From: Polytrichum commune
Taxonomy: Eukaryota > Streptophyta > Polytrichopsida > Polytrichales > Polytrichaceae
Length of the DNA: 64,000 nucleotides
Direction: 5' to 3'
Assembly (NCBI GenBank): GCA_950295325.1
Contig: OX485809.1
Location: 13,082,001-13,146,000 of the forward strand
Shown: positions 5,194-60,219 of the stretch, piece after piece
Layout: the number at the start of each line of letters is the position of its first letter
Numbering within the stretch: the first letter of the stretch is position 1
Notes under the pieces: generated by a model
What the model was told of the DNA's origin: nothing
Databases searched by the model: none
What the model saw: only the letters and a program-made list of their open reading frames with translations
Program-made: the position numbers and the translations under genes

Positions 5194-5640
5194 TCACATT
5201 GCAAGTGTCGATATGAATTCACATCCTATCAAAATCCTAAAATGACTATTCTGAGACCAAAAAGTTGTACCACATAGAGCAATGCCACTTTTTATCCTAA
5301 CAATGCATCCTATGAATATGTTGATGATAAGTTGTGTCCCGATGGTTACCCTCCCAAATGTAGAACATATTTTCAACAAACCTCTCATAGTCCTCGGCAT
5401 CTCTAAGTTTGTTTTTCAAATGTTTTAGTGCATAATTGCCAACACTCACCCCAAGTGTAAGAGTCATTAATATCTATTGATTTTTCATCTTTTGTCATAT
5501 GACACATACAACACTCCGTCACACTTTCAACAACCATTGACAATTTCATTTTCAAGAAGTTGCACATCAATCTCCAAGATGGGCTTGACAACATCCTTTA
5601 AAACTAATCGACAAAGTGACATAGACTCTTGATTTTGAGT
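5194..5640 (-). pseudogene. Broken second copy of the ParB-like domain of the ParB-methyltransferase family
   Basis: On the minus strand three reading frames together give SLCRLVLKDVVKPILEIDV, then QLLENEIVNG, VLYVSYDKR, TWGECWQLCTKTFEKQ, and RFVENMFYIWEGNHR followed by HQHIHRMH. This lines up with the intact gene at 19896-24054 (IPLCRLRDLPLVRPINELDV, LENEFVTG, VLYVSIYNN, TWSPLWKLESERFDAR, HFVGKMFYVWEGNHR). The spacing between the TW and EGNHR motifs is the same. At least two frameshifts and several stops break it. The methyltransferase half is not recognisable nearby. It shows that the ParB-like protein belongs to a dispersed, repeated family. Confidence 0.75.
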
Positions 5641-8853: not shown

Positions 8854-8864
8854 GCAACCTATAG
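8854..8864 (+). repeat. Left 11-bp target site duplication GCAACCTATAG
   Basis: Identical to 24847-24857 in the same orientation, with the bases on either side differing. MULE-type transposases make duplications of about 8-11 bp, so this fits the element bounded by 8865-24846. Confidence 0.7.
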
Positions 8865-8945
8865 AGCGTTGCTAGGGCATGAGCGTAGAGCGCAGAGCGT
8901 AGAGCGTAGAGCGTACATTTTCTGAATTTTGAGCGGAGAGGAATT
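8865..8945. repeat. Left terminal inverted repeat with GAGCGTA subrepeats
   Basis: Contains the shared GCATGAGCGTAGAGCG core followed by four more GAGCG-type units. The right end (24795-24846) has only two such units, so the left end appears internally expanded. MULE ends often vary in this way. Confidence 0.65.
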
Positions 8946-9331
8946 ATTTTTAGTAATTCTTTTGTCCAAAAATAGAAAAATTATTTTGGAAAACGTATAT
9001 TCCTCAGAATATTCGAATATTATAGTCTTATGACCGTGGAATTCAGTACCCATAACCGTGCAAAATGGGCTTGACATGGAATAAATTTATCTGTGACCGA
9101 GTTTTGGAGGAAATAGAAGACTTCATTGAATAGAACTAAAAGGACACATGTTCACTGATCAACACAAGTGAAGGACAAGTACAAGTGATTCATAAATTTA
9201 ACATAGCAAACAAATAATATATATTTATATATACGTATTCACTAAATTGTGAAAATACATAGAGTGACGTGTGTCATACACGTTTATGAAAAAGAACATA
9301 TATATGAGACTAATAAATAAATCTGCTGAAT

Positions 9332-12300
9332 TTAAACTGTAGCATGGGCTAAGATCCCCCTTTCAAGAATTGTTTTCACCTCCTTGAAACTGAGGGTAGG
9401 CGCATGCATGAAGAGGTCATGGTCGGCCTCTAGTTTGCAGACTTGTACGTAGAGATAGTAAAGATGCTTACAAGGTCGGAATGGACACCCGCGTCTACCC
9501 AGCTTAGCCATTGTCTCTTTGAACGCCGGGCAATTGCAGTCTGGGTAGGCACTGATTGAGAGATGGTAAACTGACTCCGTGGGAGTTGGTTTAGATTGCA
9601 AAGTTACAACGCATCCAAAACCGGGTTGAGGTATCATTACTACCTTCAGAATACTTGCCTTCATTGCTCTAGCGGAATCAATGTTCTGCATGTGCTTCGA
9701 ACTGGCACAAGTGATTGAGCGGCGCATGTTCTTTGACTTTCGTGTTTTTGGATAAACGTCTGCATTATTTGGCATTGGAACCTGTGACAGATCCGGTGGC
9801 GGTGCTACATTGTTGAACGTGCGGCTCATAGGAACGCTTTGCTTTTGGGGAAGTTGAAATCCCGCATTCTCCAACGCCTCAATCTCGGAACGTGTGAGAT
9901 TGGTCCCTATCTTCACAGGCCAAACCGACGGGATGGGAGGTCGTTCCTCATAATCCGAAAATGGCTCTATCCATCGTCGACGATGCCCCTTCACACACCT
10001 CTCAATATCGTCAGCACAGAAAAAAAACTGCTCCACCACCTTCTGGTTACCTTTTTGAGGGTGGGTCCAAAGGCCAGTGTATGTGGGAGCTGGGGTGCTC
10101 TTCCCGTTTTGGACGATACGGGATGTACACTTCTTTCGAGTGACAGCCATCTGCACCCAACAAGCCTTCGCAGAAACCTTATTAAGTCGGGCAATGTGCC
10201 ATAGCTTCTCATTCACACGAGTCTCCTCCACGGCCGTCACCCGTCCAATATCTATGCCAGTTGAGGCAGGGGGCTGTGTTGGGCGTTCCACTTCCACTTG
10301 AACTTCCTCCTGGATGGTACTCAGATTTTGAGCACGAGCACGTGTCACCCTCCGACCCACTCGAGGACGTGAAAAATTAACAGTGTCTGGCCTATGAGTT
10401 TCTTCTTCGGCGCCAAGGGGAAGATCCGGCTTCCGTTTCCTTGACCCAAAAACCTCAGCTCCTTCGAGGTGTGCATCTCGAGTACAGAAATCTTCGGCTC
10501 CGGGCATGTTCAAGACGGCTGCGTTCAGGGTAGTTGGATCCCCGGTTCGGTGAGCTCGGCGTTGGGCTGTCCGAAGTCGAAGTTCTTCTCTCGAGGGTCC
10601 AGAGCCTACCGCTCCACCTTTGAGGTATTGATAGTACCCCACCACTTGCAGGAATGCTCTAACGTAATCGTCGACGGCTGCTACGTAGAGATCGCCACCC
10701 CTATTGCCGGACGCTTGCAACCATTTGTTGTGAACGGTCTCAGCAAGGTTGCAAGAGGGCATTTCAGCTAGTTCATCCGGAGAAAGTTTCTTCTCCTGTA
10801 CGAAGGCAACTGGTTAAGAAATGTTCGGAAACTCAAGTGAGCAAGGAGGAGTCGTGGTGGGCCATGCCATTTAAAAGCAAAAGATTTAATATTGTTTAGA
10901 TACTACATTAGACGCAGAGAAAAAAATGCAAACTTAAAGAATTGAATAATTTGAATGAAAGAGTGTATACTTACCAGTTCCATGAAACCACCCCACTGCC
11001 TGTATCGGAAATGCCAAAACGCAAGCCAATGGTGGAGGCCTGCGTCAGAGGTGGCACCCGAAGATGTCCACCAGGCTTTGATTGCCAAATAACGTGTTTC
11101 AACCTCTGCCACAGACTGTGCATCTTTGTACTGCATACACAATTTCTTGTGTTGATCTTGCAATTCGTGCACGATGTATTGTTTGGTGTGTTTTTATAGG
11201 GATTGCGCCCAATGGAAATAACACGTTCGCTCGCGGCCTTCCATGGGTATCTTTGGGTCTCCGGATCCGTATATGATACGCACAGCGTTCCAATTGGCTT
11301 GAGCACTATCCGCCATGAAACCTTTGAATTGTGGCTTGTGTATTCCATGCCTACCCATGACGTGGTTAAGGTTCTTCCAGAACACGAGTTGAGCATCTTT
11401 GTCCTCAGACTGGAAATCACAACAAGCAATGGTGAGTACACGTTGGTAACAGGAGTCGTACACGTGGCAGGCCATGGTGGTCCAGTTGGCAACTCGTTTG
11501 ACGTAGTCAAACATCATCCATGAGTGCTCTAAATCGCCGCTAGGTTGCATTCGGCGGACAAGGTCAACACCGCTGCCAGGTCCCACCTCGGACATCTTGA
11601 ATATGAAGACCTTGTTGGAGTCGTCACCTTGGCCTGGAAACATGTTTCGTTGCACATAGGCCCAGTTGCTAAGCCCTCTGAGCTTAGTGATGCCATCAAG
11701 AACGCCATATCTGCGTAGATACTTGAAACTGTAGACACGGTTTTTTAAGTTAGGGGAGTTGAGCTCCTTGCAGCATTGGAAGATAGGCTCTAGCTGTTCC
11801 AGAGAAAGTAAGGTGGGAGGGTCGTCTTCTTCGCGGAGCAAGACGTTACCTAAAACATCATTGCTAGTTTCCAAGACTATTTTGGAAATGGTAGCTTGCG
11901 GGTTGCGCTCAACATGTTGTTCGATCAAATCGTCTATTATCTTCCGCGTGCCCCTATAGTCTCCTACCTTGACATGATGTTTATGGTTGCCTACATGGAC
12001 GCAAGCACGCTCTTGCGTATCATCTCCAAAAACGTAGAAGATTTTTGCATCACAAGAGGCTACACAAAAAGGAGGTTCTTTACAGATCTTACAGACTATT
12101 GTTGAAGTTGGAGGTGGACCGTCTGCAACAGGGAAGGCATCTTTGGAAGAACCTTCGAACTCGACCTCGTTCAATCCAGATGCGCGTTCAGGCCGCTGCA
12201 GAAACCCACATTTGGGATTGTGGCATTGAAGATGACCTACACAGTTAGACGACCGGAATGACAGCCCCAACGTGTTACTGATGTTAGTAGTCATAGTCTT

Positions 12301-13077
12301 TGTCCACATATGGCCATCGTAACGTTTGTCCATACCTTCCATACATTTAGCATTCTTCTGGACGGCAGATGGAAGGGTGGGAGGAAGAATGAAGATTATA
12401 TCCCCATTGAACGACGGTGGCAAGAAATCTACGTACTCAATACGGATGGAATCATAGTTCAGTTTTTTAAGGATTGACTTGCTTCCAGGCATACTACCCA
12501 GGGAACGAAGGGAGGGAAGAATGTTTATCAGTTTAGTAGTTTGCGAAGGTATAAGGAAAGGAGTAGTCCTACGTGAATCTTGAGAAGAGGAGGGAGATGG
12601 ACGCTTAGCACTCGACCGGATTGATGGATGGGAAGGCCTCCCCTCATCATCAGAAGAATCGGACAAATCGATGCTAACGCGGAGACCTGGTTCGATCTTG
12701 ACACGAGACAGTAAGGGGGCTTCAGTGCACAGTGTGGAGGAATTGCGAGGAGTGAGTAGGACTGTAGAAGCGTTCATGGACTCCGACAAGCCAAAGACGC
12801 GATACCTTCCGGGCTTGAGTTTCCAAACGCGAGCATTATTCTCTAACGTTACGGGCTGGACGTATAAGGAATAAAGGACATTTCGAGTTTCTGGATCGAC
12901 AACATCTGTCTCTAACCACAAGCTATCAGCATTGAAACCATAACGAATGGATAGCCACTGGGGAGTGAGATCAGCGGTTCCATCAGGGCCAGTAGGTATG
13001 CATGTAGGGATAAGAGATCCAGGAGAAACAAGTTCGATGGCATCGAAGAGTGGAGCTTGGACAGCAGCGGAAGACAT
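9332..13077 (-). pseudogene. MULE-type transposase with SWIM zinc finger, two exons, one in-frame stop
   Basis: Exon 1 is 13077-10975 and exon 2 is 10795-9332, joined in frame by a 179-bp intron (GTAAGT...ACAG): WGGFMEL then EKKLSPDELAEMPSCNLAET. The model has 1,188 codon positions. Catalytic-type Asp lies at about residue 524 (SWMMFDYV) and a second at about 590 (FMADSAQA). The MULE Cys-His motif CYFHW is at 619-623, and a candidate Glu at about 658-660 (AEVETRY). The C terminus has a SWIM finger, CNC at 1121-1123 and CKHLYYLY at 1143-1150, which normally binds end DNA. Codon 628 is TAA (11194-11196), directly after HWAQSL; translation stays clean on both sides, so this is a single recent nonsense change or an assembly error. 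The first ATG after the TATA box gives MSSAAVQAPLFD. It would cut and insert the element's DNA in the nucleus. Confidence 0.82.
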
Positions 13078-13143
13078 TGAGAAACAATTTGACAAAGCTA
13101 TGTGAATGCAATTGCAAAAGGGGGATTGAAAAAACATAATGGG

Positions 13144-13150
13144 ATATATA
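13144..13150 (-). promoter_or_regulatory. TATA box of the transposase gene
   Basis: TGTATATATCCC on the minus strand lies about 70 bp before the ATG at 13077, leaving room for a short leader. It separates the transposase promoter from the small upstream ORF that ends at 13240. Confidence 0.4.
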
Positions 13151-13239
13151 CATGAGAGGTTGATGAAATCGTTGGACATCCCAGACATGTACAGGATGTA
13201 GTCAGAAAATGTTTGGTTAATTATGGGAAATATTAAGAA

Positions 13240-13677
13240 TCATGGAGTGCCAGACGAAAATGGGGCATTTTCCATATGGGGCCCTTTGCCATATTTCTCA
13301 CCGTCATGTTTATGACAATGGTCAATCCCTAAACTACGAACTGCAGTGCATCCTGCGCAATCGAGTTTTTGACCTTTGGCACTCCTTAATATGGATCTAG
13401 AGTAAGTGCCAGGTTTAATAACCCCTGCTCTAGAATAGGCATGAATCTTGAAAGTAGACTTGTTATGTATCAGTGTTGCATCAACTGCCCGCAAAGATGG
13501 AGTCTGTGGTTTAGGAGTGTGAACGACGACCACCGGAGTAACTGAGCAGTCAGGTGGGTTGGCAATCTTCATGTTGTTGACGTCTGCAGAACCATCGATG
13601 GACAACGTGGTGTGAAGTTGACATGAACTAGAAGCACCTAATGGAGCAAGGCTTGGGAGACGTGAGACAGTACCCAT
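13240..13677 (-). CDS. Hypothetical 145-residue protein with a Cys/His cluster, upstream of the transposase
   Basis: ATG at 13677 follows a TATA box by about 55 bp; the ORF ends TGA at 13240, 163 bp before the transposase start on the same strand. The N-terminal two thirds are Ser/Thr/Pro-rich. The C-terminal part holds CAGCTAVRSLGIDHCHKH, a CxxC...HCHKH arrangement that could bind zinc. I recognise no family. It could instead be a 5' exon of the transposase, but I see no in-frame splice to it. Conservation in other copies of the element would settle whether it is real. Confidence 0.4.
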   Translation of the reverse strand: MGTVSRLPSLAPLGASSSCQLHTTLSIDGSADVNNMKIANPPDCSVTPVVVVHTPKPQTPSLRAVDATLIHNKSTFKIHAYSRAGVIKPGTYSRSILRSAKGQKLDCAGCTAVRSLGIDHCHKHDGEKYGKGPHMENAPFSSGTP

Positions 13678-13730
13678 TGGAGAAGAATATGATGAGATGA
13701 CATGAAGGAAAGGGTACCAATAATTGGGTA

Positions 13731-13737
13731 TTATATA
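13731..13737 (-). promoter_or_regulatory. TATA box of the small Cys/His ORF
   Basis: GTGTATATAATACCC on the minus strand, about 55 bp upstream of the ATG at 13677. The plus-strand gene at 14339 points the other way, so 13740-14338 is probably a shared divergent promoter region. Confidence 0.4.
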
Positions 13738-13740
13738 CAC

Positions 13741-14338
13741 CTTGGGTAGACACCAATACCCAAATATATGACAACCTCTTAGATCAATTAATAGTCAATA
13801 TTTATTCATGTCAATTCTAGACAACCTGTTTCATGTAGGATTAGAATGTACTCCAGTAATAGTCATTATTTTTTGACCACCAAATATGATACATGTCAGT
13901 ATAGACTAATTTTCCTACGCACTAAAAAATAACTCATTCTTGATAACCTAATATATGCTATGCCGAAATGATGAAGTTAAACCCTAAAGGTGTATGTATC
14001 TTTTATGGAAAAATAATAAATTTGAAAATTTGTGGAGGCCGTCATTGTCAGGAGAGATGCGTAAATATATCGACAAATTCGAAATAGATTAGTAACTGAT
14101 GTCAGTGTTGTCAGTGATCTAATCTCGGATACCGCGTTTTATTAAACGTGGGAATATAATTCGATGACATAGCTTGATAGAAATTAAATACAAAGGAAAG
14201 GGATACGGAGGACTAGCTTGGGAGACATGAACGTACGATTAGTTCCGGGAGGAGCATCTCGTGAGAGTAGCTAGTGTGCATGAGAGTTTGTGTAGGAGCA
14301 GAGAAGTTCGGGCATTGGTGGGGCATCGAGACGCACAC
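13741..14338. other. Divergent intergenic region inside the 16-kb element
   Basis: AT-rich up to about 14220, then more GC-rich towards the plus-strand gene. No ORF or clear binding motif is seen. By position it should hold promoters for the minus-strand Cys/His ORF and the plus-strand basic protein. Confidence 0.35.
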
Positions 14339-15054
14339 ATGAAGGAAACAGGGCACACAACAGTCTCTTCAACGGAGCCGTCACGGAAGCCTAGGAAGAG
14401 GAGGGGTAGGACGAACTTCAGCAACTCGAAGCAGAAGAGGCGCGCTGCGAGGGATCTGAAGAAGAAGGACACCCCGAGCATTGAGGGTCGTGGAACTCCA
14501 TCGAACTTGAGCGACGAAGCGGAAGAGGATCAGGGAGGAACTTGGAGAGGGAGATGTAAAATACGGTCGTTACACCTAGAGTCGATAGCAGAAGCTGAGG
14601 ACGCGGGCAAGATTCACGGGACCTCAGTTGCAACAGCGATGGACGAAAGCGAATAAGAGAATGAATCGAATAGCAGAGTGAGTGATGCTAGTAAGATGGA
14701 TTCACCTCAGCAGACAAGTGATCCTCCCGCGGACGATGTAAGTGTTTTCCTTGGAGGCTTAAGTTTCTGTTGAAACCCTAATCAATGCAATAGTTTGAAC
14801 TAACGCGAGATATGTTTGTGATTCATTAGCGAGAAGATAGCCCTGATAGAGGACATATTTATAGGGACACGGATGATATAGAATTTCCAGATCACGAAGT
14901 GACAGCTTTAGAGGGAGGAGACAAGCGCGCAAATTGTATTACACCAGCTATGCGGGGAGGCGCGGGACATCTGATGGAAGCAAGAGCGCCAAACAAAGAG
15001 GCCTCGAGGGAGCAACCGAAAAAGGCTCGATCGGAGACACTCGATGATTCATAA
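14339..15054 (+). pseudogene. Hypothetical basic, NLS-rich protein, two exons, one in-frame stop
   Basis: Exon 1 (14339-14737) starts MKETGHTTVSSTEPS and exon 2 (14830-15051) ends SETLDDS*. The 92-bp intron (GTAAGT...TTAG) joins in phase 0. Residues 20-50 are strongly basic (RKPRKRRGR, KQKRRAARDLKKK), typical of nuclear localisation or nucleic-acid binding. The rest is acidic and Ser-rich with no domain I know. Codon 106 is TAA (14654-14656); the frame stays open on both sides, as with the single stop in the neighbouring transposase. Translation could otherwise end there, giving a 105-residue protein. It may be an accessory factor of the element; function is unknown. Confidence 0.5.
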
Positions 15055-15157
15055 GTAAGGCAATCATTCCATTTGCATCTAGACTTTTCATTGCTGACTG
15101 AACATGAAACTGCATTCAGCTAAATTCCCCATCTTTTGATAGAGGTGAGAAATTCAC

Positions 15158-16574
15158 CAATCCCACAGATCCGTGGGATTGGAGAATGTATTTCTTGTTG
15201 GGAACAACAATTTACTTCCGATTCGTCACATTAAATTTTGCCTACCACATCAAGCAACGATACCGACATTCATCAATCCCATGGATCCGTGGGATTGATG
15301 CATGTGCATATATTTTTACATCGGAGCTAACATTCACCAATCCCACGGATCCGTGGGATTGGCAAGTGTTTACGCAGTTGAACAAACGATGCCGACATTC
15401 ATCAATCCCACGGGTCCTTGGGATTGGCAAGTGTTTACGCAGTTGAGCAACGATGCCGACATTCACCAATCCCACGGATCCGTGGGATTAATGCATGTGC
15501 ATAAATTTTTACATCGGAGCTAACATTCACCAATCCCACGGATCCGTGGGATTGGCAAGTGTTTACGCAGTTGAGCAACGATGCCGACATTCATCAATCC
15601 CACGGGTCCTTGGGATTGGCAAGTGTTTACGCAGTTGAGCAACGATGCCGACATTCATCAATCCCACGGGTCCTTGGGATTGGCAAGTGTTTACGCAGTT
15701 GAGCAACGATGCCGACATTCATCAATCCCACGGGTCCTTGGGATTGGCAAGTGTTTACGCAGTTGAGCAACGATGCCGACATTCATCAATCCCACGGATC
15801 CGTGGGATTGATGAATGTGCATAAATTTTTACATCGGAACTAACATTCACCAATCTCATGGATCCGTGGGATTGATGCATGTGCATAAATTTTTACATCG
15901 GAGCTAACATTCACCAATCTCACGGATCCGTGGGATTGGCAAGTGTTTACGCAGTTGAGCAACGATGCCGACATTCATCAATCCCACGGATCCTTGGAAT
16001 TAATGCATGTGCATACATTTTTACATCGGAGCTAACATTCATCAATCCCACGGATCCGTGGGATTGGCAAGTGTTTACGCTGTTGAGCAACGATGCCGAC
16101 ATGCATCAATCCCACGGATCCTTGGGATTAATGCATGTACATACATTTTTACATCGGAGCTAACATTCATCAATCCCACGGATCCGTGGGATTGGCAAAT
16201 GTTTACGCTGTTGAGCAACGATGCCGATATTCCCCAATCCCACGGATCCGTGGGATTGATGTATGTGCATACATTTTTATATCGGAGCTAACATTCACCA
16301 ATCCCACGGATCCGTGGGATTGACAAGTGTTTACGCAGTTGAGCAACGATGCCGACATGCATCAATTCCACGGATCCGTGGAATTAATGCATGTGCATAC
16401 ATTTTTACATCGGAGCTAACATTCATCAATCCCACGGATCCGTGGGATTGAATAATATGCACATTGTCATGCAACAAGACAAACATTAATCACACGGATC
16501 CGTGGGATAGGAGAATGTCTACATTCATGGGCAGCGGGGCTCACGTCTTGCAATCCCACGGATCCGTGGAATTG
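15158..16574. repeat. Array of 24-bp BamHI-centred palindromes with 64-bp period (about 22 units)
   Basis: Each unit has a 24-bp palindrome (half-site CAATCCCACGGA, GGATCC at the centre) and a 40-bp spacer. From 15403 to 16427 seventeen palindromes start at exact 64-bp steps. Earlier ones start at 15158, 15274 and 15338; later degenerate ones near 16487 and 16551. Spacers are of two kinds: A (GCAAGTGTTTACGCAGTTGA then GCAACGATGCCGACATTCAT) and B (ATGCATGTGCATAMATTTTT then ACATCGGAGCTAACATTCAC). Both share a GC..ACATTCA end. The order from 15403 is A,B,A,A,A,A,B,B,A,B,A,B,A,B,A,B. A period of 64 is not a multiple of 3, so the recurring ORFs here are not protein. A solo palindrome lies at 19771-19794. 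It can fold as hairpins or serve as a dimer-binding site; its role is unknown. Confidence 0.9.
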
Positions 16575-16754
16575 ATGAATGTGCATAAAATCTCACAAAG
16601 GAGGCTATAGTCTTCAATCCTACGGGTTTTCATTTTGCCAAAAAGTGACATTTTTCATGAATTTTTCCTATTTTTTTCATGATAAGTCAGTAAACTTTAT
16701 GAATTACGAGAATCTATACACCATTTTCTTGAAAATAATCTAGTCTGTTTGGAA
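16575..16754. other. Short AT-rich junction after the palindrome array
   Basis: Starts with a last, broken half-palindrome (CAATCCTACGGG near 16614), then ordinary AT-rich DNA up to the second MITE. Confidence 0.4.
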
Positions 16755-17159
16755 CTACACTAAATAGGTTGATTAGTGTTGGATGGAGATTAGTGTTAGA
16801 GCCAATAGTTCCCAAAACACTAAATGTCACTTGAAATTACAATTAGTGTTAGAATTTCCTTTGTCTTTATTTTGCATTATCTGAGTTGGGTTCCATTAAG
16901 TTTAAATTTTTGTAATATCAAATTCCTAGCATATTACATTTTATATGAGGCTCACATATCCTACCTCCAATTCTTCATTTGAAGATCTACAAAAAAATCA
17001 TCTAACACTAAATGCGCTTATGTAAATATTCAAAGTTACTAATTGGTACAAATAGTGTTAGAGTTGACATTTGATGTTCTAACACTATGAAGACAATTGA
17101 CATTTAGCGTTTTCGTCGACTATTAGTGTTTCCAACACTAATCAACATATTTAGTGAAG
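16755..17159. mobile_element. Second copy of the CACTA-like MITE
   Basis: Left end CTACACTAAATAGGTTGATT is nearly identical to the copy at 1957. The right end reads AACACTAATCAACATATTTA followed by GTGAAG. Its right-hand 170 bp (16987-17156) are repeated almost exactly at 17971-18140. Confidence 0.75.
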
Positions 17160-17970
17160 TCCGCCGACTGGAAGGAAGGGGAATCTTTTGAGCTGCCCGA
17201 GGGTGAGAGGCGGGCAGCGGAAAAATAGGAGGCCTTGAGGGGGTCCGGGGAGAGCTGGGGCTTCTCTCTCATTTCTCTCTCTCTCCCCCTCAGGCTGGCT
17301 AAGAAACTCTGAGGGCTAAGCCCTGCCGGTTTTGGAAGCCGGGAAGAGGGTGCAGTCACGGGAGGTGAGAGGAAGGTCTGCGGGCAAGGGGGCACCAAGA
17401 GCAGTGCTGCTAGCTGCGAAGATGGGGAGTGGAGAATGAGAGGACTGTCGAATCCACAACGCTGCACAGAAAAGTTCGAGAGGAGCAAGAGGGCTTCTCA
17501 AGATAGATAGATAGATAGATAGATCAGGGGAGAGAGTCATCACACATGAGCTTCATGGTGAAGTAGCCTGCCTCCACTCAAATCACTTCACATGCTTTCC
17601 ATTTCGCCTTCCTGCTATATTTTGGATTTTTGCATTTCGCTACGACCAGGAACCTCATCTCTAATTTACCAGGACCCATCTGTTGAGCTGGTGCAGCCCT
17701 GAGCTAAATCATCTTCTTCCCGCACTCATCAACATCAGTTGGGCATGCATGCACTGATCAAATTAGGTTTTAGTGGTGTTGGGTCCGTGCGACTCAATAG
17801 ATGCAAAAATGAATTAGGTGTTTTAGCAGACGGAGTGTGCGAGCTGAATCCCTCCTCTAAGGTGCTCCAAGTTATTGGCCAACGCTCAGGGTTACATACG
17901 GCCATATGCTTAGCCTGAAGCAATGTGAAGAATCATGCTTCAGATTGGCAGACGTTGCTGCCCTTACATG
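17157..17970. other. 814-bp GC-richer segment bracketed by direct copies of the MITE right end
   Basis: It is clearly richer in G+C than its surroundings, with polypyrimidine and AGGTGAG-like splice-like strings near 17280-17370 and a (GATA)n tract at about 17503-17526. No domain is recognised in any frame. Because it sits between two 170-bp direct repeats, it may be captured host DNA or a product of a one-ended or tandem rearrangement. Confidence 0.5.
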
Positions 17971-18140
17971 CTACAAAAAAATCATCTAACACTAAATGCG
18001 CTTATGTAAATATTCAAAGTTATTAATTGGTACAAATAGTGTTAGAGTTGACATTTGATGTTCTAACACTATGAAGACAATTGACATTTAGCGTTTTCGT
18101 CGACTATTAGTGTTTCCAACACTAATCAACATATTTAGTC
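17971..18140. mobile_element. Partial third MITE copy (right-hand 170 bp only)
   Basis: Matches 16987-17156 with only about two differences (one T/C near position 18023 and the last base), so the duplication is recent compared with the 1957-2362 copy. Confidence 0.75.
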
Positions 18141-19883
18141 AGTCCATTAAGGCCGGGCTGCCTTTGGGTTAGGGAAAGGCTAGGATCTCAGATTTGACAG
18201 ATGCTCTACAACTATCATTCTGGATGAGGGCGAAGAGTCAAAAGCATAGATGGTTGGACATACGAAAGGTCATCTCTATAGGAGTAGCTTGCGTATGGAT
18301 TCATTATTCCAGTATGAAACTTGTTTATATCCTTGTGAGGTTTCAGAACCTTTGTAGCCAGTTCCAAAGAAACTCTGCTTTTGCAATTGATGCGAAATAT
18401 GGCCTCCATGCCTAGCTATGGTGGTGTAATGATTCTTGTGACTCATTTGAACTCTCCACATGCAGATTGCAATGATATGAATGACCACACTGGGGTTGTT
18501 GAAAGGACGAGTCCATGATCATCCATAGTAGATTGGGAAAGGATGATAAATTTAATGAGGACTTTGTTTATCATATCTTGTCATCTAATCATAAATTTTT
18601 GGGGTTTCTTTATCGGTTTTGATTAAAATTATTGTTATCAATTAGGTAAGGTCAGAAGGAATTACTAAATGCCAGTTCGAATTTCACTTGTAATGTGGGA
18701 GCAAGCAGGAGGCGAATTCATGAGGTGGCGTCAACAGGCGAAGAGTCGCAGAGGATGCACAGACTACAATGTCAGAGCAATAACCAATCAGCCAGGCGTC
18801 AACAGATTTCAAGGTGATTTCAGTTACCCTATCTGAGTAGATAAGGACTGCTGCTTATGGCTATGGTTTATCATCTTAGATCTTCACAAAGAGTACACAG
18901 GCGCTGGTTGTAATAGATGTACTTCATAACAGAAATAACTTATATACTATTCAGGTTGCAATACTCTCTCTAGTTTTCTGTGGAAGGAAGGTACATAAAC
19001 CTTGGTAAGGTATTAATTTCATGTAAGTACCTGACATAGGTTGTGTGCCATGTAGACATATATACTTCTTTCCCCCAGATAATGTCAGTTAGCGCTTTCT
19101 GTGAGTACAGGCCTTTATCTACATTTCTGTGATCTGAAAGACCGTCCTCGCGAAGTTGATCGATAGGGGAATGCACAGGTTTCTGATATGCAGTGGAGCG
19201 GTTGTTGGATTGGGTTCCTCGTGGTTCAATCTTGTGAATTGGCTCAAATTGGTGATGTCTTGGACTAATCCGGCTGCTGCTTGAATGACTACAGAGCTTG
19301 TTGGAAGAAGGTGAGGAGATGACTGTTGTTGGGCACGTCAAGGAGAAGAAATTCCTTCGTCTCAGGCGCTCCTTGTGAGGGCCACAGGGAAATTGCCTAG
19401 TATTATTCTAGTAATTAGGATAAGTGGTGCAAGGCTGCAGCTGCATGAAGCTTAATTCCAGTAGAATGTTACTTTAGAGATGCACATGATCATGCTTGGC
19501 TACCTGTAGAAGGGACTGCTGTCACAGTGGTATTAAAGGTGGGGATGCAAAAAACAAACTCTATGTATGAGCAAAGCATTTGTAAATGCTCTTGAGAAAG
19601 TGAAAATCAATAAAGAAAAGGTGTTTTACACACCACTTGTGATCAAGTCAGCTGAGAAATGGAGGTAAGGGGTGACCAATTGAAGTTTAGTTGGTGAGGG
19701 AGGACGCCCCCCACCCAGCAGATTTTCACTCGTCAGGCACCTCGGTTGCGGCTTCGTGGACAATTTGCTCCAATCCCACGGATCCGTGGGATTAAGAGAT
19801 ATGGTCAAATTTTCACAATTTCTTTGCTGCTTCATCTCATTTGCCTTTCATTTTGTTAATGCCATTTGTTTCTCTCTATGTAG
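18141..19883. other. No recognised gene; upstream region of the ParB-methyltransferase gene
   Basis: A 123-codon minus-strand ORF (18970-19341) has no recognisable domain. The last ~85 bp before 19884 are U-rich and end TATGTAG, a good splice acceptor, so an upstream 5' exon of the ParB-methyltransferase probably lies in this stretch; I could not place it. A solo palindrome lies at 19771-19794. Confidence 0.4.
19771..19794. repeat. Solo copy of the array palindrome, ~100 bp before the ParB-methyltransferase
   Basis: Same half-site CAATCCCACGGA and GGATCC centre as the array, with the last base changed (TTA for TTG). It has no 64-bp neighbours. Its place just ahead of the first coding exon suggests a binding or regulatory site, or a founder copy of the array. 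Confidence 0.75.
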
Positions 19884-19895
19884 GAGTTGGAGGGA

Positions 19896-22800
19896 ATGGA
19901 TCTCTCCGATGATCTTGTGGTCTTGGAGCCCTCTGTGGAGGAGGAGCAAGCGGAGGATGCTGTGGACTTGAACAACGTCGAAGAGCTGGAGGATATTGAG
20001 GAGGTCGTTCCAGAACAACTCGAGCAAGTTGACCGGGTGAACACCGACGTGCAGGAGGTAGTTGATTTAGACACTTATGTCTTCCGTTCTTGCACCTGCA
20101 CTCCTTTAGAGTCGGTGGTTGAGTTATTCTCGTGTGTACTAAATTGAATCGGATGTTTGTAGACTCCCTCTAGACTTCCCGAGGAACCTCCCGAGTCGGC
20201 TAACCCCGAGGAGAGTGAGGTCAATCTTCGAGCGAAGCAGAAACAAGATTCGACGGCAGTCATCAATCGCCTCCGCATTCGGCCTCTTGAGAAGTCTCGA
20301 CTTTGCATCCCCCTCTGCCGCTTGCGGGATTTGCCACTCGTTCGGCCCATCAACGAGTTGGATGTCCAGAGGTTGGAGAACGAATTCGTTACGGGGTACC
20401 GAGATGGTGACCGTGTTCTCTATGTTTCCATCTACAACAACAAGGACGACATCTTGGAGGTCACGGAGGACATCTCGTCCACCTGGAGTCCGTTGTGGAA
20501 GCTTGAGAGTGAAAGATTCGATGCACGGATGGCCGCCGACCCCGATCTTGTCCACTTTGTGGGCAAGATGTTCTACGTGTGGGAGGGGAACCACCGGTTG
20601 ACTGCTTGGTGGCGCCACGTGAACAGGTTCCATCCTACGGAAGAGGCGTGGCATATCTCTCCCTATTGTATTGCCTTGTATTCGCGGAAGCATAGTGGCG
20701 TTCTCATGAATGCCATGAACGACGTGAATTGGTATGTCTCTCTCTATTCTTTGCTACTTCATTCTTTGTTTGTGAGTGTCTTCTCATCTTGTCTTCTTCA
20801 ATTTTTTGTAGGTCTATCGAGAACGACCACGTCAAGTCCAGCCTCCCCTCCAAGCTTAACCGCATCCGCTACTTTGGGACCTTGGAGTTGGAGGACTTCA
20901 AGGACCTCATTTCCAAGGAGGACTACTTGGCTTGTATCAATGCCAAGAGGAAGCACAACACTTGGTACCCCTTGACCATCGACGTCTTCGTCTCCTTTCT
21001 CTACAAGGTAATCACTTCCCCACACTTTGATTTCTCTCCTTTCAATTTCCATCTTCTTCGTTGGCTTACCTTTGCTTGCAACCAGAGAGAGATCTCCGCC
21101 GCCTCCGACGCTGCAGCTAGAGCTTACAAGGATGAAACTCCGGCCGATCAGAGGACCGCTCTCGGTGTTTGGAGGGCCATGACACTTGCTGAGGAGAAGG
21201 CCAGAAAGTCCATTCGCTCCAAGAGCTTCGAGAAGTATGTGGCCGTTGCCAACTCCGAGAATACCGACGCCTTCTTTGATGAGGTGCTCCTCTTCATCTT
21301 CTCTTCTCCTTCGATTTGTCCTTCATGATTTCTTCTCGATTTTGCTAACTCACCTCCAATTTCCTCATCTAGATCAATCGGCACTTCTCGGTGAACACGG
21401 TCCCGGACATGACCATCGAGAAGCTTTCTAAGGTGGCCAACACTCATGTCCCGTGTCATTTCAAGGCGAAATGGCTCCATTGGTGGAATTCCACCATGAC
21501 TATCCGAACCGGCAACAAATTCCCTTCCATTGTGCCCCTTAAGGAGAGGGTCCTCGAATCCTGGCTTCATAAGGCCTCTTTCTGGGCTCAGGTGAATCTC
21601 TCCCCTCCTTTGGATTGATTGTTTTCTCTATGGTTGTCTATCCTCATTTCTTGTTTTTCATTCTATGACTACAGTTGGAGGACAGGGTTGATTTGGAGTT
21701 CAAGTCCTTAGAGGCTAGCCTTGGTCGCGCCATCAATTGGGATGTGCAAGGGGGTGTGTTACGTCCACCAAAGTTCGTGGATGGATGGAGGATCCTTCTC
21801 TGGGACCACGCCTTCCCGCATTACTTTGAGGAGAAGTCAAACACGAAGTTCCTCAAGGGCACGAACCTCACTGAGATTGAAGATGGTATCAAGATCATTC
21901 ACCGTGTCCTTTATAGGTATTTCTTCCTCCTCTCCACTTGTCCTTCATTTTCTTTGCAACACTCGAACTTCTCTCATTTTTTCCCATGTCTTTTGCTTTA
22001 GGTACATCTATCACGAGCTTATTCCGAAAGAAGCTTTTTATGCCTCCTTTCTACCGGTCTATGTCGAGGAGTGGGTTCTGGACTCCTCCCCGAATTTCAT
22101 GTACACTGACGAGCACGATGTTTACCCATTTGCTCACCTCAAGCATGCAGGGTGGTATTTGGACTGTTCGAAGGGGTTCGTTCCTCCCTCGGAGGTTCAT
22201 TTGTTCACCTCTTTGAATGCTGAGGCACCCGCTGATGTTGTCTTTCACGAGCCCGTGGTCCCCGAGGAGTCGGTGAAGGGTACGAAGGCATCGAAGGTTG
22301 TTAAGGAAATCAAAAGCAAGAAGGTGAAGGCGGTCTCGGGTACTCAAGCTTCCCAAGCCACTGTGTCTACTCGTTCTGCTACGAAGGCCGCCGCCGAAGC
22401 TTCCGCTGCACCTGCTGCCACCTTTGTAGGTAGCCCATCCCTCCCTCTTGCCTTGCATGCCCCCGCTCCTTCTCACAGCACAGCCACTGCCCCCTCTTTG
22501 ACTCGCAAGAGGAAGGCATTCGCAGCAGCAACGAGTGCTACATCCTCTGAGACTGCTTCTACCTACAGTCTCATTGAGAATGTAGACATCGGAGTGCTCA
22601 TGGACCACTACACGAAGACCAACTCCCATCAAGCGGCCTACCTTCGCATCGAAGAATTCCTTGTCAAGGTAGGAGTCCACTTCTTTTTTTCATTCTTGCA
22701 TTCATTTCTATGTTGTGAAGCATTCCTCTTCTCTTCTCAACCTTCTTCTTTGCTCTACAGGTTGGTGTCGGTCGGACTCGCCTTAACAGGAATCCCAAGT

Positions 22801-24054
22801 CCCATACCAGTATCGACCTTCTCCTTGTCGATGTACCGGACAATCTCCCGGTGCCCGCCATCTCGACTTCGCCATCCGACATTCCAGCGTGGAACCGCCG
22901 GGGTCCGAGTTTCTTTGATGATGTCTTTACTTTCGCAGAGGACAACCTCCATGACAACGGTGTCCTCGTCATCATGCACCCCGATGCCCCCAAGATGCAC
23001 GACAACATTCGCGATTGGGCCTTGGAATGTCACTTTACTATCGCCAGGGACTGGTGGGGCGTGAATGATCTTCACCTTACGTCCGCACAAGATCCCAAGA
23101 TGTTTGTAAGTATTTCTTCTCCTCCTCTTCATTTACTTCAAGTTGTACATTTTTCTTTTTGTCACTAACTATGCAATTTTCTTTGTAGACAAAACGCTTC
23201 TTCATCAAGGTTCTTGTGCCCCTCGGCTCCACTCTCTCCGTTTACGAGGCGGAGGACTATTCGAAGTTGGGCTTCTCATTGGAGAAGGATTCCCTTCTCC
23301 ACAATTTCACGGATGAGGAGAGCCAGCTCATGAAGGATGGCAAGGTGCCATGGAGAGGGGCTCGAGAGAAGAGCATGGAATTCTTAAGCATTGTTATCCA
23401 GACGCTCACGAGGAAGCACGACATTGTCATGGATTGGCAATGTGGCACAGGTTTCTCTTTGCCCTCCTATACTTTGTTTTTGAGTTTCATTTCTTGCTTT
23501 TGCATTTTTAATTTTTTTCTCTACCTCACTCAATTTCTTTTCATTTAGGTGCATCCATCACTGCGTGTCGTATGGCTGAGCGCCACATTGTGGCGCTCGA
23601 GCGAGACTCGGAGATCTTCGAGGCCGTCCTGCTGCCTATGCGGGACTCTGTACCTCCGGCCGAACCCGTTGTCGCACATCCGGACCCCTCTTCTACTGAA
23701 CCTCGGCAAAAGCTCCTGAGGCGTCACATAAAGTGTGCGTAAGTCTGATTTCTAACTTAGCACCTCTTTCATTGGTTTTTTTTTCATTTCTTTTCTTGCT
23801 TTAGCTTATGCATTCTAGTATGTTGCTTTGTGTGTAGAGTTCCACGGGAGAGCCCTATCCGTGTCCTCAACCCGGACATGTTTCGAAGCCCTCCGCGGGC
23901 ATTTGAACTACCTTCGTATGCTGGTGGGCTTGCCCATCAGTTCGCGGTCGCACCATCTCCACCTATTACTCGCGCTCGTCCTGTTGATAGGCGTGTGTTG
24001 GAATATTTAGATGTAGAGGCCAGGCAGGGAATGGAAAGTGATAGAGATGACTAG
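19896..24054 (+). CDS. ParB-like/amino-DNA-methyltransferase fusion protein, 1,088 aa, 11 exons, intact
   Basis: Exons: 19896-20057, 20163-20731, 20812-21007, 21086-21283, 21373-21591, 21675-21916, 22002-22668, 22761-23105, 23189-23450, 23549-23738, 23838-24054. All junctions are GT-AG and in phase, with no internal stop (3,267 nt). An acidic N terminus (1-54) precedes a ParB/sulfiredoxin-like domain at about 95-230, with RLCIPLCRLRDLPLVRP and EGNHRLTAW (195-203). An unassigned middle follows. A linker at about 585-700 has basic KSKKVKAV and TRKRKAF nuclear signals. The C-terminal fold at about 752-1005 has beta-class order: IDLLLVDVPDNLP (motif IV place; DVPD at 775-778 instead of D/S-PPY), REKSMEFL (motif X place), DWQCGTG (948-954, motif I, SAM binding) and HIVALERDSEIF (motif II). 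Such enzymes methylate N6-adenine or N4-cytosine in DNA, but the altered DPPY leaves activity uncertain. An acceptor just upstream allows an earlier 5' exon. Confidence 0.85.
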
Positions 24055-24794
24055 GCGTTTTATAAACTATGAATAGCATTATAACACAAAAAAAATATGT
24101 TTTCTTGCCTCCAAACACCCATGGGGCGTTTGGTTATGTTAAAGGGCACATGCGTCTCTAAAGTGATGCTTGGAATGGTTGGAGCTCGATGTTCTTCCTT
24201 TGTCATATAATTTCTTATATGAAGTAATAAAAGCCCTTGACATAGTAATTGTTTCCATTCCCCACACATCATATAAGCTTTATATCTAGGTGGGGGAGGG
24301 AATTATTGCATACGAACGTATCTATCACTCGTCCACCGTGAAAACCCTAGAATAGTATGTAACTTTGAGTACTATTGTTTCTTATTAATTTGACATCAAA
24401 ATTTGAGGCCAATCAACCTAAAGAATATTCACTTGTTGGATTGTATAAACTTCGCCATTTAAATTATTGTTTCGAGGATGCCCGCATCTAAATGATGAAG
24501 CCAGCCCTAATTACACCCTTAGCCTTAAACACTAAAACAAATTTGTGAATTAATTAAAACACAATTTCATTTCAACCTTGAACGGTCCTCATTTAAATCA
24601 CCCTTTCATTTAAATGATGACGTCAGCCCTAATTTCACTATATATATAATAACAAAAATTTGCAGTAGGACCCCCTTCCACGGATTTGCGGTACTCTTTT
24701 CCCTAAAAATATACATTTACAATTTTGTCCGGACAAAATTCAGTGGTAATAGGATCCTTATGTTTCAATAAATTTTTGAAAAGCGAGCGGAGAA
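24055..24794. other. 3' flank of the ParB-methyltransferase gene, no gene seen
   Basis: AT-rich. AATAAAA near 24225 could serve as a polyadenylation signal. The block near 24480-24640 contains a diverged direct repeat around ATTTAAATGATGA.GTCAGCCCTAATT (two copies about 120 bp apart). Confidence 0.4.
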
Positions 24795-24846
24795 ATTCAT
24801 GAAAACATGACGCTCACCGCTCTACGCTCATGCTGTAACTTTCCCC
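24795..24846. repeat. Right terminal inverted repeat of the 16-kb element
   Basis: Read inward on the minus strand it gives GCATGAGCGTAGAGCG, GTGAGCGT, TTTTCATGAATTT and CTCCGCTCGC, the partner of the left end at 8865-8945. Confidence 0.65.
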
Positions 24847-24857
24847 GCAACCTATAG
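24847..24857 (+). repeat. Right 11-bp target site duplication GCAACCTATAG
   Basis: Perfect match to 8854-8864 in the same orientation, directly outside the right inverted repeat. Confidence 0.7.
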
Positions 24858-45647: not shown

Positions 45648-46209
45648 AGGTTTGGTTTCCTAACACCCACCAAGGGGCAATATTAAAAACATTACAATCC
45701 AGGTAGGTTGGTTGACAATTCACCCCAATTTAAGCTTGCTACACTAGTTTGGGATCACTAGCCTTTAAATACAGGGGCACATTAGGTTAAAATTTCAATC
45801 CCTTGACTCTAGAATAATAATAATTATTTTGACATTCCCCTCCCCTGGTTTGCCTCCCCTCTCAATAGGTGTTGTAGAGATTCACCATTGTTTAGGATGC
45901 AATGATTTACAAGTCACATATGAATTTAAATGCAAGATTAATATATAGTATTCACATTATACATCTAAATAAAGTATACATAGCAAACCTATTGAGAGGG
46001 GAGGCAAACCAAGGGAGGGGAATGTCAAAACAATTATTATTATTCTAGAGTCAAGGGATTGAAATTTTAACATGATGTGCCCCTGTATTTAAAGGCTAGT
46101 GATCCAAAACCAGTGTAGCAAGCTTAAATTGGGGTGAATTGTCAACCAACCTACAGGGATTATCATGTTTTTAATATTGCCCCTTGGTAGGTATTAGGAA
46201 ACCAAACCT
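45648..46209. mobile_element. 562-bp foldback element with ~223-bp inverted arms
   Basis: The left arm (45648-45870) starts AGGTTTGGTTTCCTAACACC and ends GCCTCCCCTCTCAATAGGT. The right arm (45987-46209) is its inverse, starting ACCTATTGAGAGGGGAGGC and ending GGTATTAGGAAACCAAACCT. The arms match along nearly their whole length with few differences. The spacer is 116 bp and AT-rich, without an ORF. No clear target duplication is seen. It would form a long hairpin in RNA or single-stranded DNA. Confidence 0.85.
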
Positions 46210-59521: not shown

Positions 59522-60182
59522 TTATCTAGCTAGTGCCGAGCCTGGTTGGCAAATGATGTTGCATGGCTTAACAGTAGAGGTTTTAAGCTTTAGGCACTGA
59601 CCCTCCCATCGGTACCTAGACATGAGGCATGAATGTAGGAGCTTTAAAAGTGTCACTTCCCGCCCTTGTCATTGGTTGTTTTTAGTCTTATTAACTATGA
59701 GGGCACAAGGAGCTCCATTAACAAAAACCGATGGTAAGATAGATGAGTAGCAAGGCAGTTGGGGATGGGACAAAAATTATCCAGCAATCGTTGCTTGATA
59801 GATAAAACAATGACCATGTGTGAAAGCTACTTAACTAAAACCTACTCGACAATCTTTGGAGCAAGTTCTTGTAGGTGCATTGGGATAGCCGGATGCCTCC
59901 GCTATAACCGAGGGAGCTTTAACCAAGTTTTAGGAAAAACTTTGGTTATTTGGTAAAGTCAGGTGGGGAGGGGGCATCATGAAGATGGTGCTAAAACCAT
60001 CACTTTAAGAACTGAGCATGGATTGGAGAACTTTAGAGGAAATATGTTAGTAATTAGCAATTAACATGGGACTTCAACACACCAAAATATGTCTCATTTG
60101 ATTTATATATGCATAAGTTATAAGGGTTCAATTTTCCGTTGGTAGAAGATCCAAAACAAACACACAACTTCAAGTGATGTAT
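59522..60182. other. Intergenic DNA, no gene recognised
   Basis: No domain; one 65-codon ORF at 59759-59956. Confidence 0.35.
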
Positions 60183-60208
60183 TAGGGTTTAGGGTTTAGG
60201 GTTTAGGG
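60183..60208 (+). repeat. Interstitial telomere-type repeat (TTTAGGG)n
   Basis: About 3.5 units of TTTAGGG, the plant (Arabidopsis-type) telomere repeat. It directly adjoins the inverted R2 repeat. Confidence 0.8.
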
Positions 60209-60219
60209 GTGTAGGGTGT

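Follow-up and report, generated by a model that had tools for sequence, protein, structure and literature searches.

The window analyzed here is a stretch of 64,000 nucleotides from Polytrichum commune (GenBank assembly GCA_950295325.1, contig OX485809.1, positions 13,082,001 to 13,146,000 of the forward strand). It contains a DNA transposon that carries a gene for a ParB/sulfiredoxin (Srx)-fold domain joined to a methyltransferase-like domain (the ParB-MTase gene), together with a transposase-like gene, a small basic open reading frame (ORF) and an array of palindromes. For the coordinates of all features see Table 1.

The ParB-MTase gene (19896-24054) comprises 11 exons separated by ten GT-AG introns. 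The joined exons (3,267 nt) encode 1,088 amino acids followed by the stop codon, with no internal stop. Among nine other copies that were aligned, L013, L021 and L025 are intact under the identical 11-exon model. L017 contains a single stop, L011, L019, L023 and L027 carry frameshifts or an insertion, and L015, which was fetched only in part, has stops. The splice dinucleotides are kept in all eight full-length other copies, save one acceptor in L023. Judged from these sequences, the 11-exon model is not a product of chance, and the intact gene described in an earlier note on this DNA was borne out. Within the family, private changes were nonsynonymous in 123 and synonymous in 49 cases, shared changes in 14 and 14 cases (Fisher p = 0.029); beyond these counts there were four private stops and one shared stop. 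We give this contrast little weight as a sign of selection, and the shared C-to-T changes may be parallel.

The gene sits within a DNA transposon bounded by terminal inverted repeats (TIRs) and target-site duplications (TSDs). The duplicated sequence GCAACCTATA is part of an 11-bp word, which is the sole word of at least 7 bp shared between the two flanks examined. Alignments of other copies stop at 8862-8864 on the left side in four out of six cases (the remaining two at 8881 and 8895) and at 24846-24847 on the right side in four out of five cases (the other at 24851). All four copies that were aligned fully at both ends show 10-bp duplications (GCAACCTATA, TCTTTGAGGG, CATCCCATTA and GTCCACTTGA); a fifth copy (L027/L028) had no alignment to its right end and was left out of this reading. 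In MULE transposons, target-site duplications are 9-11 bp long, a range that includes the 10 bp of the present element. Because of this length and of motifs seen by eye, we tentatively label the transposon MULE-like.

Table 1. Features of the transposon within the window.
Feature	Position	Strand	Remarks
Left 10-bp TSD GCAACCTATA	8854..8863	+	identical to 24847-24856
Whole transposon	8864..24846	.	~15,980 bp; ends accurate to 1-2 bp
Left terminal repeat motif GAGCGTAGAGCG (repeated)	8881..8913	+	
Transposase-like gene, second exon	9332..10795	-	SWIM-like CxC...CxH cluster, by eye
Transposase-like gene, first long exon	10975..13239	-	D..D..C(2)H pattern and Cys/His clusters, by eye
ORF upstream of transposase	13240..13794	-	possible first exon with Cys/His cluster
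Small basic ORF	14243..14656	+	family-conserved, 93-99% identity
Palindrome array, AATCCCACGGATCCGTGGGATT (22 bp) in 22 copies	15159..16573	.	≤3 mismatches; mostly 64-bp pitch
Single exact copy of AATCCCACGGATCCGTGGGATT	19772..19793	.	102 bp before ParB-MTase ATG
ParB-MTase exon 1	19896..20057	+	
ParB-MTase exon 2	20163..20731	+	ParB/Srx-fold domain (EGNHR motif)
ParB-MTase exons 3-7	20812-21007, 21086-21283, 21373-21591, 21675-21916, 22002-22668	+	middle region
ParB-MTase exon 8	22761..23105	+	methyltransferase-like domain; motif IV position DVPDN
ParB-MTase exon 9	23189..23450	+	motif X (PWRGAREK); beginning of motif I (DWQCGTG)
ParB-MTase exon 10	23549..23738	+	remainder of motif I; motif II (RHIVALERD)
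ParB-MTase exon 11 and stop	23838..24054	+	
Right terminal repeat motif GAGCGTAGAGCG, inverted	24811..24829	-	
Right 10-bp TSD GCAACCTATA	24847..24856	+	

Domains of the ParB-MTase protein

The N-terminal region of the ParB-MTase protein adopts a ParB/sulfiredoxin (ParB-CTPase) fold. This part of the earlier proposal held in a three-dimensional fold comparison, and we count the domain as having the ParB/Srx fold, not as a member of the Pfam ParBc family. A fold of exon 2 calculated from the single sequence was discarded (pLDDT of 34.8). The EGNHR motif is conserved to 92-99% per position and is found, by visual assignment, at the place of the GERR-type motif, which is the form of this nucleotide motif in bacterial ParB. 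The middle region (exons 3-7, 20812..22668) gave no Pfam match.

The C-terminal, METHYLTRANSFERASE-like part resembles N6/N4 methyltransferases across motifs X, I and II, with motif I interrupted by intron 9. The best match to PF01555 had an E-value of 4.8e-5 and a score of 23.8 bits, which is below the curated cut-off of 26.7 bits. Other profile matches of this part were to PHROG (8.6e-6) and DpnA (0.0023). A 44%-identical relative, with the intron left out, yielded the same top PHROG profile (7.1e-5) and PF01555 at 0.092. Weak PHROG methyltransferase matches were seen in two out of five relatives tested, and no Pfam methyltransferase match was obtained for six relatives in which the intron still lay within motif I. 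The position of motif IV reads DVPDN in the window, DVPKN in P0121, DVPEN in L033 and DIPEN in L034, i.e. D[VI]P[DEK]N in all four readable sequences. The canonical catalytic motif IV of the beta class is (D/S)PP(Y/F/W), for example DPPY or SPPY. Because motif IV is non-canonical, we name the domain methyltransferase-like; as far as the sequence indicates, it is probably not an ordinary methylase. The earlier assignment to the beta class is retained for the region of motifs X, I and II and given up for an ordinary beta-class enzyme on account of motif IV and the PF01555 score.

Palindrome arrays and related elements

The array in the window is located between the transposase-like gene and the ParB-MTase gene, and its distances to the two ends of the element are 6.3 kb and 8.3 kb. 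The whole window contains 23 sites of AATCCCACGGATCCGTGGGATT (palindrome 1) with up to three mismatches, compared to none in 100 shuffles. We searched the genome (408 Mb, ~406 Mb of which in seven contigs) with this array and obtained matches at eleven or more loci by our own grouping, of which ten besides the window were fetched on both sides. The ParB-MTase gene was present within the fetched 10 kb at nine of them; at the tenth a 98%-identical ParB exon is located ~23 kb from the array. Pieces of the transposase and of the small ORF were present at all ten. The arrays of the eleven elements comprise 7 to 23 sites. The spacing of 102 bp between the single palindrome and the start codon is found in all ten aligned copies (one has ATA for ATG), which by itself shows little because the copies are ~98% identical.

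Diverged relatives carry arrays of other palindromes. L033 contains 15 copies of palindrome 2, CACCCTCTCGG-NN-CCGAGAGGGTG, one upstream of the gene and 14 between two ParB-MTase exons. L035 and L037 have 10 and 4 copies, respectively, in similar repeat units, and L036 has 7 copies in 139-bp units. With the palindromes masked, blastn detected no similarity between the units of L036 and those of L033, L035 and L037. Over 65 residues, the L033, L035 and L036 proteins share 85-92% identity among themselves, 58-71% with the window protein and 52-60% with L034. This identity, together with the unrelated units, argues that the palindrome tracks the protein group while the repeat unit is replaced. A third array, 20 copies of palindrome 3, GAGGCCTCGGATCCGAGGCCTC, lies in the 3 kb just upstream of L034 (L038). 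Array and gene are thus linked in three groups. The core CGGNNCCG is common to all three palindromes; within the window, the 1.45-kb array has 13 such cores and the other 62.5 kb have 5. The centre of palindromes 1 and 3 is GGATCC, a sequence with an internal GATC; palindrome 2 has no GATC. Allowing up to four mismatches, we found none of the palindromes in the stretches fetched for the other groups, and palindromes 2 and 3 neither in the window nor in 198 kb of family-1 loci.

A search with the unit DNA of array 2 (39 of 92 candidates scored) gave at least eight clusters according to our own grouping. Five of the eight listed hold a ParB exon (C7:31.636, C5:50.441, C4:5.037, C2:24.000 and C6:24.762 Mb). 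The clusters without a scored ParB exon (C6:19.10, C1:24.59 and C6:33.14 Mb) may be non-autonomous elements or unscored copies. The third array also includes another palindrome, C(C/T)CACGGGTGAACACCCGTG(G/A)G, which is present twice (L038 1754-1775 and 2148-2169) and whose CCCACGG arm resembles palindrome 1.

For the ParB exon, the genome yields 1,276 candidate places. Scoring covered the best 150, each of which has E ≤ 1.6e-63; by hand count ~115 of these contain no stop and 11 belong to the window family (at least 87% identity). A query of 250 residues around exon 2 retrieved 121 proteins at E ≤ 10 (384 candidates), and the 120 listed have E ≤ 3.0e-21 and 45-74% identity. L033 and L034 are diverged relatives from the same genome with 38-62% identity, depending on the stretch. 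L034 could be read almost completely, from ParB through motif II, and its motif I contains a stop; the reading of L033 begins at ParB and reaches motif IV, at the end of the fetched stretch. The tblastn stretches of diverged copies break near the same residues, as expected for shared introns. A decayed relative of the ParB exon (window 5270-5622, minus strand; 45-56% identity over two stretches, with stops) is evidence of another gene group in the window.

Transitions between copies of the element amount to 2.0-2.7% at CG, 1.8-2.4% at CHG and 0.6-0.7% at CHH sites, compared to 0.27-0.29% at A/T positions. An excess at CG and CHG is the trace expected from plant-type methylation, so the host probably silences these elements. 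Taken together with TTTAGGG repeats, the pattern indicates a land plant as host.

The window transposase has two apparent stops, one of which is intronic and the other private to the window copy among seven aligned copies. In the six other copies, one reading frame is open to its end and five contain a stop or frameshift. For the window transposase this goes against the earlier statement that every other gene of the element has a stop. The ORF upstream of the transposase is open in five of seven aligned copies, with an early stop in L014 and L026. No Pfam match was obtained for the spliced transposase. The small ORF (14243-14656, plus strand) is rich in lysine and arginine, may run on to ~15054 and is a possible DNA-binding partner. 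A repeat of ~400 bp with ends of the type CACTAAATA / TATTTAGTG has copies at window 16749-17155, 17971-18139 and 1951-2358; two pieces are nested in the transposon, in the interval from the array to the ParB-MTase gene, and the third lies outside. Elsewhere in the window, an inverted repeat of ~560 bp (45648-46209, 86% match to its own reverse complement) is a possible foldback element, and 60182-60217 is a short interstitial plant-type telomere repeat (TTTAGGG).

Proposed mechanism and alternatives

A single long protein combines both domains, and its gene lies in a DNA transposon, as in known accessory proteins of this type. The 21.5-kb brown-algal transposon Sola1-1_Ec32 of Ectocarpus has an accessory gene for a 1,104-residue protein with ParB and N4/N6-methyltransferase domains (PMC12477816). 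The same source attributes green and red algal cases to Iyer 2011 and Petroll 2025 and suggests that proteins of this kind act on the transposon that encodes them, by binding and modifying it. The present gene is similar in length (~1,100 residues), in its ParB-like and N4/N6-methyltransferase-like domains, in its orientation opposite to the transposase and in its location in a giant DNA transposon. It differs by the type of transposon (10-bp TSD), the plant host and the non-canonical motif IV, and the likeness is drawn from the published description. The portion of PMC12477816 at hand mentions no palindrome array. The earlier view that such an enzyme would be unexpected in plants is weakened by this brown-algal gene. 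In the open-access literature searched, only the Ectocarpus paper was found to describe a transposon with a gene of this type; for plants, or for palindrome arrays linked to the gene, we found no description. ParB-MTase accessory genes in algal transposons are known already, whereas the plant host, the non-canonical motif IV and the group-specific palindrome arrays appear to be new. The arrays, on which the earlier note is silent, are in our view the more important feature.

A further comparison is offered by VANC, a protein of the Arabidopsis VANDAL (MULE) transposons. As described in PMC5735166, VANC has DUF1985/DUF287 domains and binds motif arrays in its own non-coding DNA, which leads to loss of methylation, and its targets shift by tandem-repeat turnover between related families. 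Similarly, the elements described here encode an accessory protein and carry tandem arrays in their own non-coding parts, including introns and upstream regions, and these arrays differ among copies and among related families. Unlike those of VANC, the repeats are palindromes with a common core, and an anti-silencing effect would be assigned by analogy. No Pfam match to DUF1985/DUF287 was found in the ParB-MTase protein. The bacterial ParB-parS systems (ParB, Noc, KorB) share with the present case the ParB fold and palindromic, iterated sites near the gene; the differences are EGNHR in place of the GERR-type motif, that no helix-turn-helix domain was identified and that no sign of CTP use or of a ParA partner was seen. 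The comparison suggests that the ParB-MTase transposons may be VANC-like in logic and ParB-parS-like in form.

Based on the gene structure and the arrays we propose the following mechanism. The ParB-MTase protein, alone or together with the small basic protein, would bind to the palindromes that elements of its own group carry in their non-coding DNA. Its target sites would be the array and, in the window family, the one site ahead of its own start codon. Recognition would involve the shared CGGNNCCG core and the group-specific arms. Coating or marking of the element could then regulate the gene itself and counter silencing by host cytosine methylation in the manner of VANC. The non-canonical motif IV argues for binding rather than standard methylation. 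We regard it as fairly probable that the gene is such a transposon accessory gene, serving self-recognition via the palindromes and anti-silencing. A far-reaching version, which we put forward only tentatively, is a eukaryotic self-identity system of the ParB-parS kind. Here, a ParB-fold clamp encoded by the transposon would load at the palindromic iterons of its own group, spread along the element and, with the methyltransferase-like domain, keep CG and CHG methylation off; the arms would diversify around the fixed CGGNNCCG core, so that many systems could coexist in one genome without cross-talk.

Several observations weigh against self-recognition by the ParB-MTase protein. The profile match to PF02195 that had been named as a check was found neither in the protein (E up to 10) nor among 72 family members (E up to 1), and Foldseek gave no PDB match at E ≤ 0.001 (best 0.057). 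L013, one of the frame-intact copies, carries Q for R in EGNHR. The promoter palindrome is exact in eight out of ten copies and not clearly better kept than its surroundings. Three of the eight listed clusters of array 2 have no ParB exon among the best 150 of the 1,276 candidates. In the arrays of family elements, the palindrome CG sites show no sign of protection from deamination (41 transitions in 740 CG positions, 5.5%, uncorrected for amplification). Finally, the transposase or the small basic protein could bind the palindromes instead. In that case the palindromes would be iterons that transposition, or the control of it, requires, with another site of action for the ParB-MTase protein. 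The presence of transposase and small-ORF pieces beside the array at all ten other loci fits this reading, which we nevertheless hold to be rather unlikely: the array is internal rather than subterminal, 14 of the 15 sites of L033 lie between two ParB-MTase exons, the window family has one palindrome 102 bp ahead of the ParB-MTase start codon, and the window transposase had no match below E 0.1 in L033 and L034 (in the fetched stretches, not the whole elements).

Activity of the protein as an N6-adenine or N4-cytosine methyltransferase, writing bacterial-type marks on its own element as the Ectocarpus authors propose for theirs, appears unlikely. The motif order IV-X-I-II, the conservation of X, I and II and the GATC at the centre of palindromes 1 and 3 would agree with it, whereas the D[VI]P[DEK]N motif of the window, P0121, L033 and L034 is unlike DPPY or SPPY, PF01555 stays below its cut-off and palindrome 2 lacks GATC. 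A passive origin of the arrays, as minisatellites that unequal exchange and replication slippage have spread along with the element and that no protein binds, seems improbable to us. Their number of sites varies (7 to 23), as it does in minisatellites; however, the same palindrome occurs in unrelated repeat units of close relatives (L036 versus L033, L035 and L037), and the CGGNNCCG core is common to three palindromes and concentrated in the array. A recent capture of a bacterial or phage gene, followed by intron gain, is very improbable. Fusions of ParB and N6_N4 methyltransferases are common in phages (PMC12704722), and phage proteins under the names DNA methylase and modification methylase appear among the matches of a structure search in viral proteins. 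The present protein shares with the phage and prophage fusions the same domain pair in one protein of a mobile element; it differs in its long middle region, its ten introns and in that no relative was found at the sequence level. In a search of 5.8 billion proteins with the full-length protein, none of the 7,991 candidates scored reached E ≤ 0.001, probably because the exons are separate in that database; exon-sized queries worked. Searches of viral and prokaryotic genome collections with short peptide patterns (4, 16 and 39 matched stretches) yielded no confirmed relative. Three phage records at E 2-3 for ParB were dropped as chance matches; one that was checked overlaps an ORF resembling a complex I subunit. 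The divergence of the family (120 listed homologues) and the common tblastn breaks, as for shared introns, also speak against a recent arrival. Of the capture suggested earlier, the residence in a DNA transposon therefore stands and the recent origin is not supported, given the 1,276 candidate places and the lack of a confirmed prokaryotic or viral relative.

Among the cases that we read, VANC (PMC5735166) is the one plant example of a transposon that evades silencing in a sequence-specific manner. In Polytrichum commune, a prokaryotic-type protein architecture comes with likely target arrays in which the arms vary by group and the core is constant. The copy number is striking, with at least 150 places of the ParB exon at E ≤ 1.6e-63 among 1,276 candidates in a 408-Mb genome. 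If the proposal is true, it would mean an independent origin of transposon self-recognition and provide a source of DNA-binding proteins with changeable specificity.

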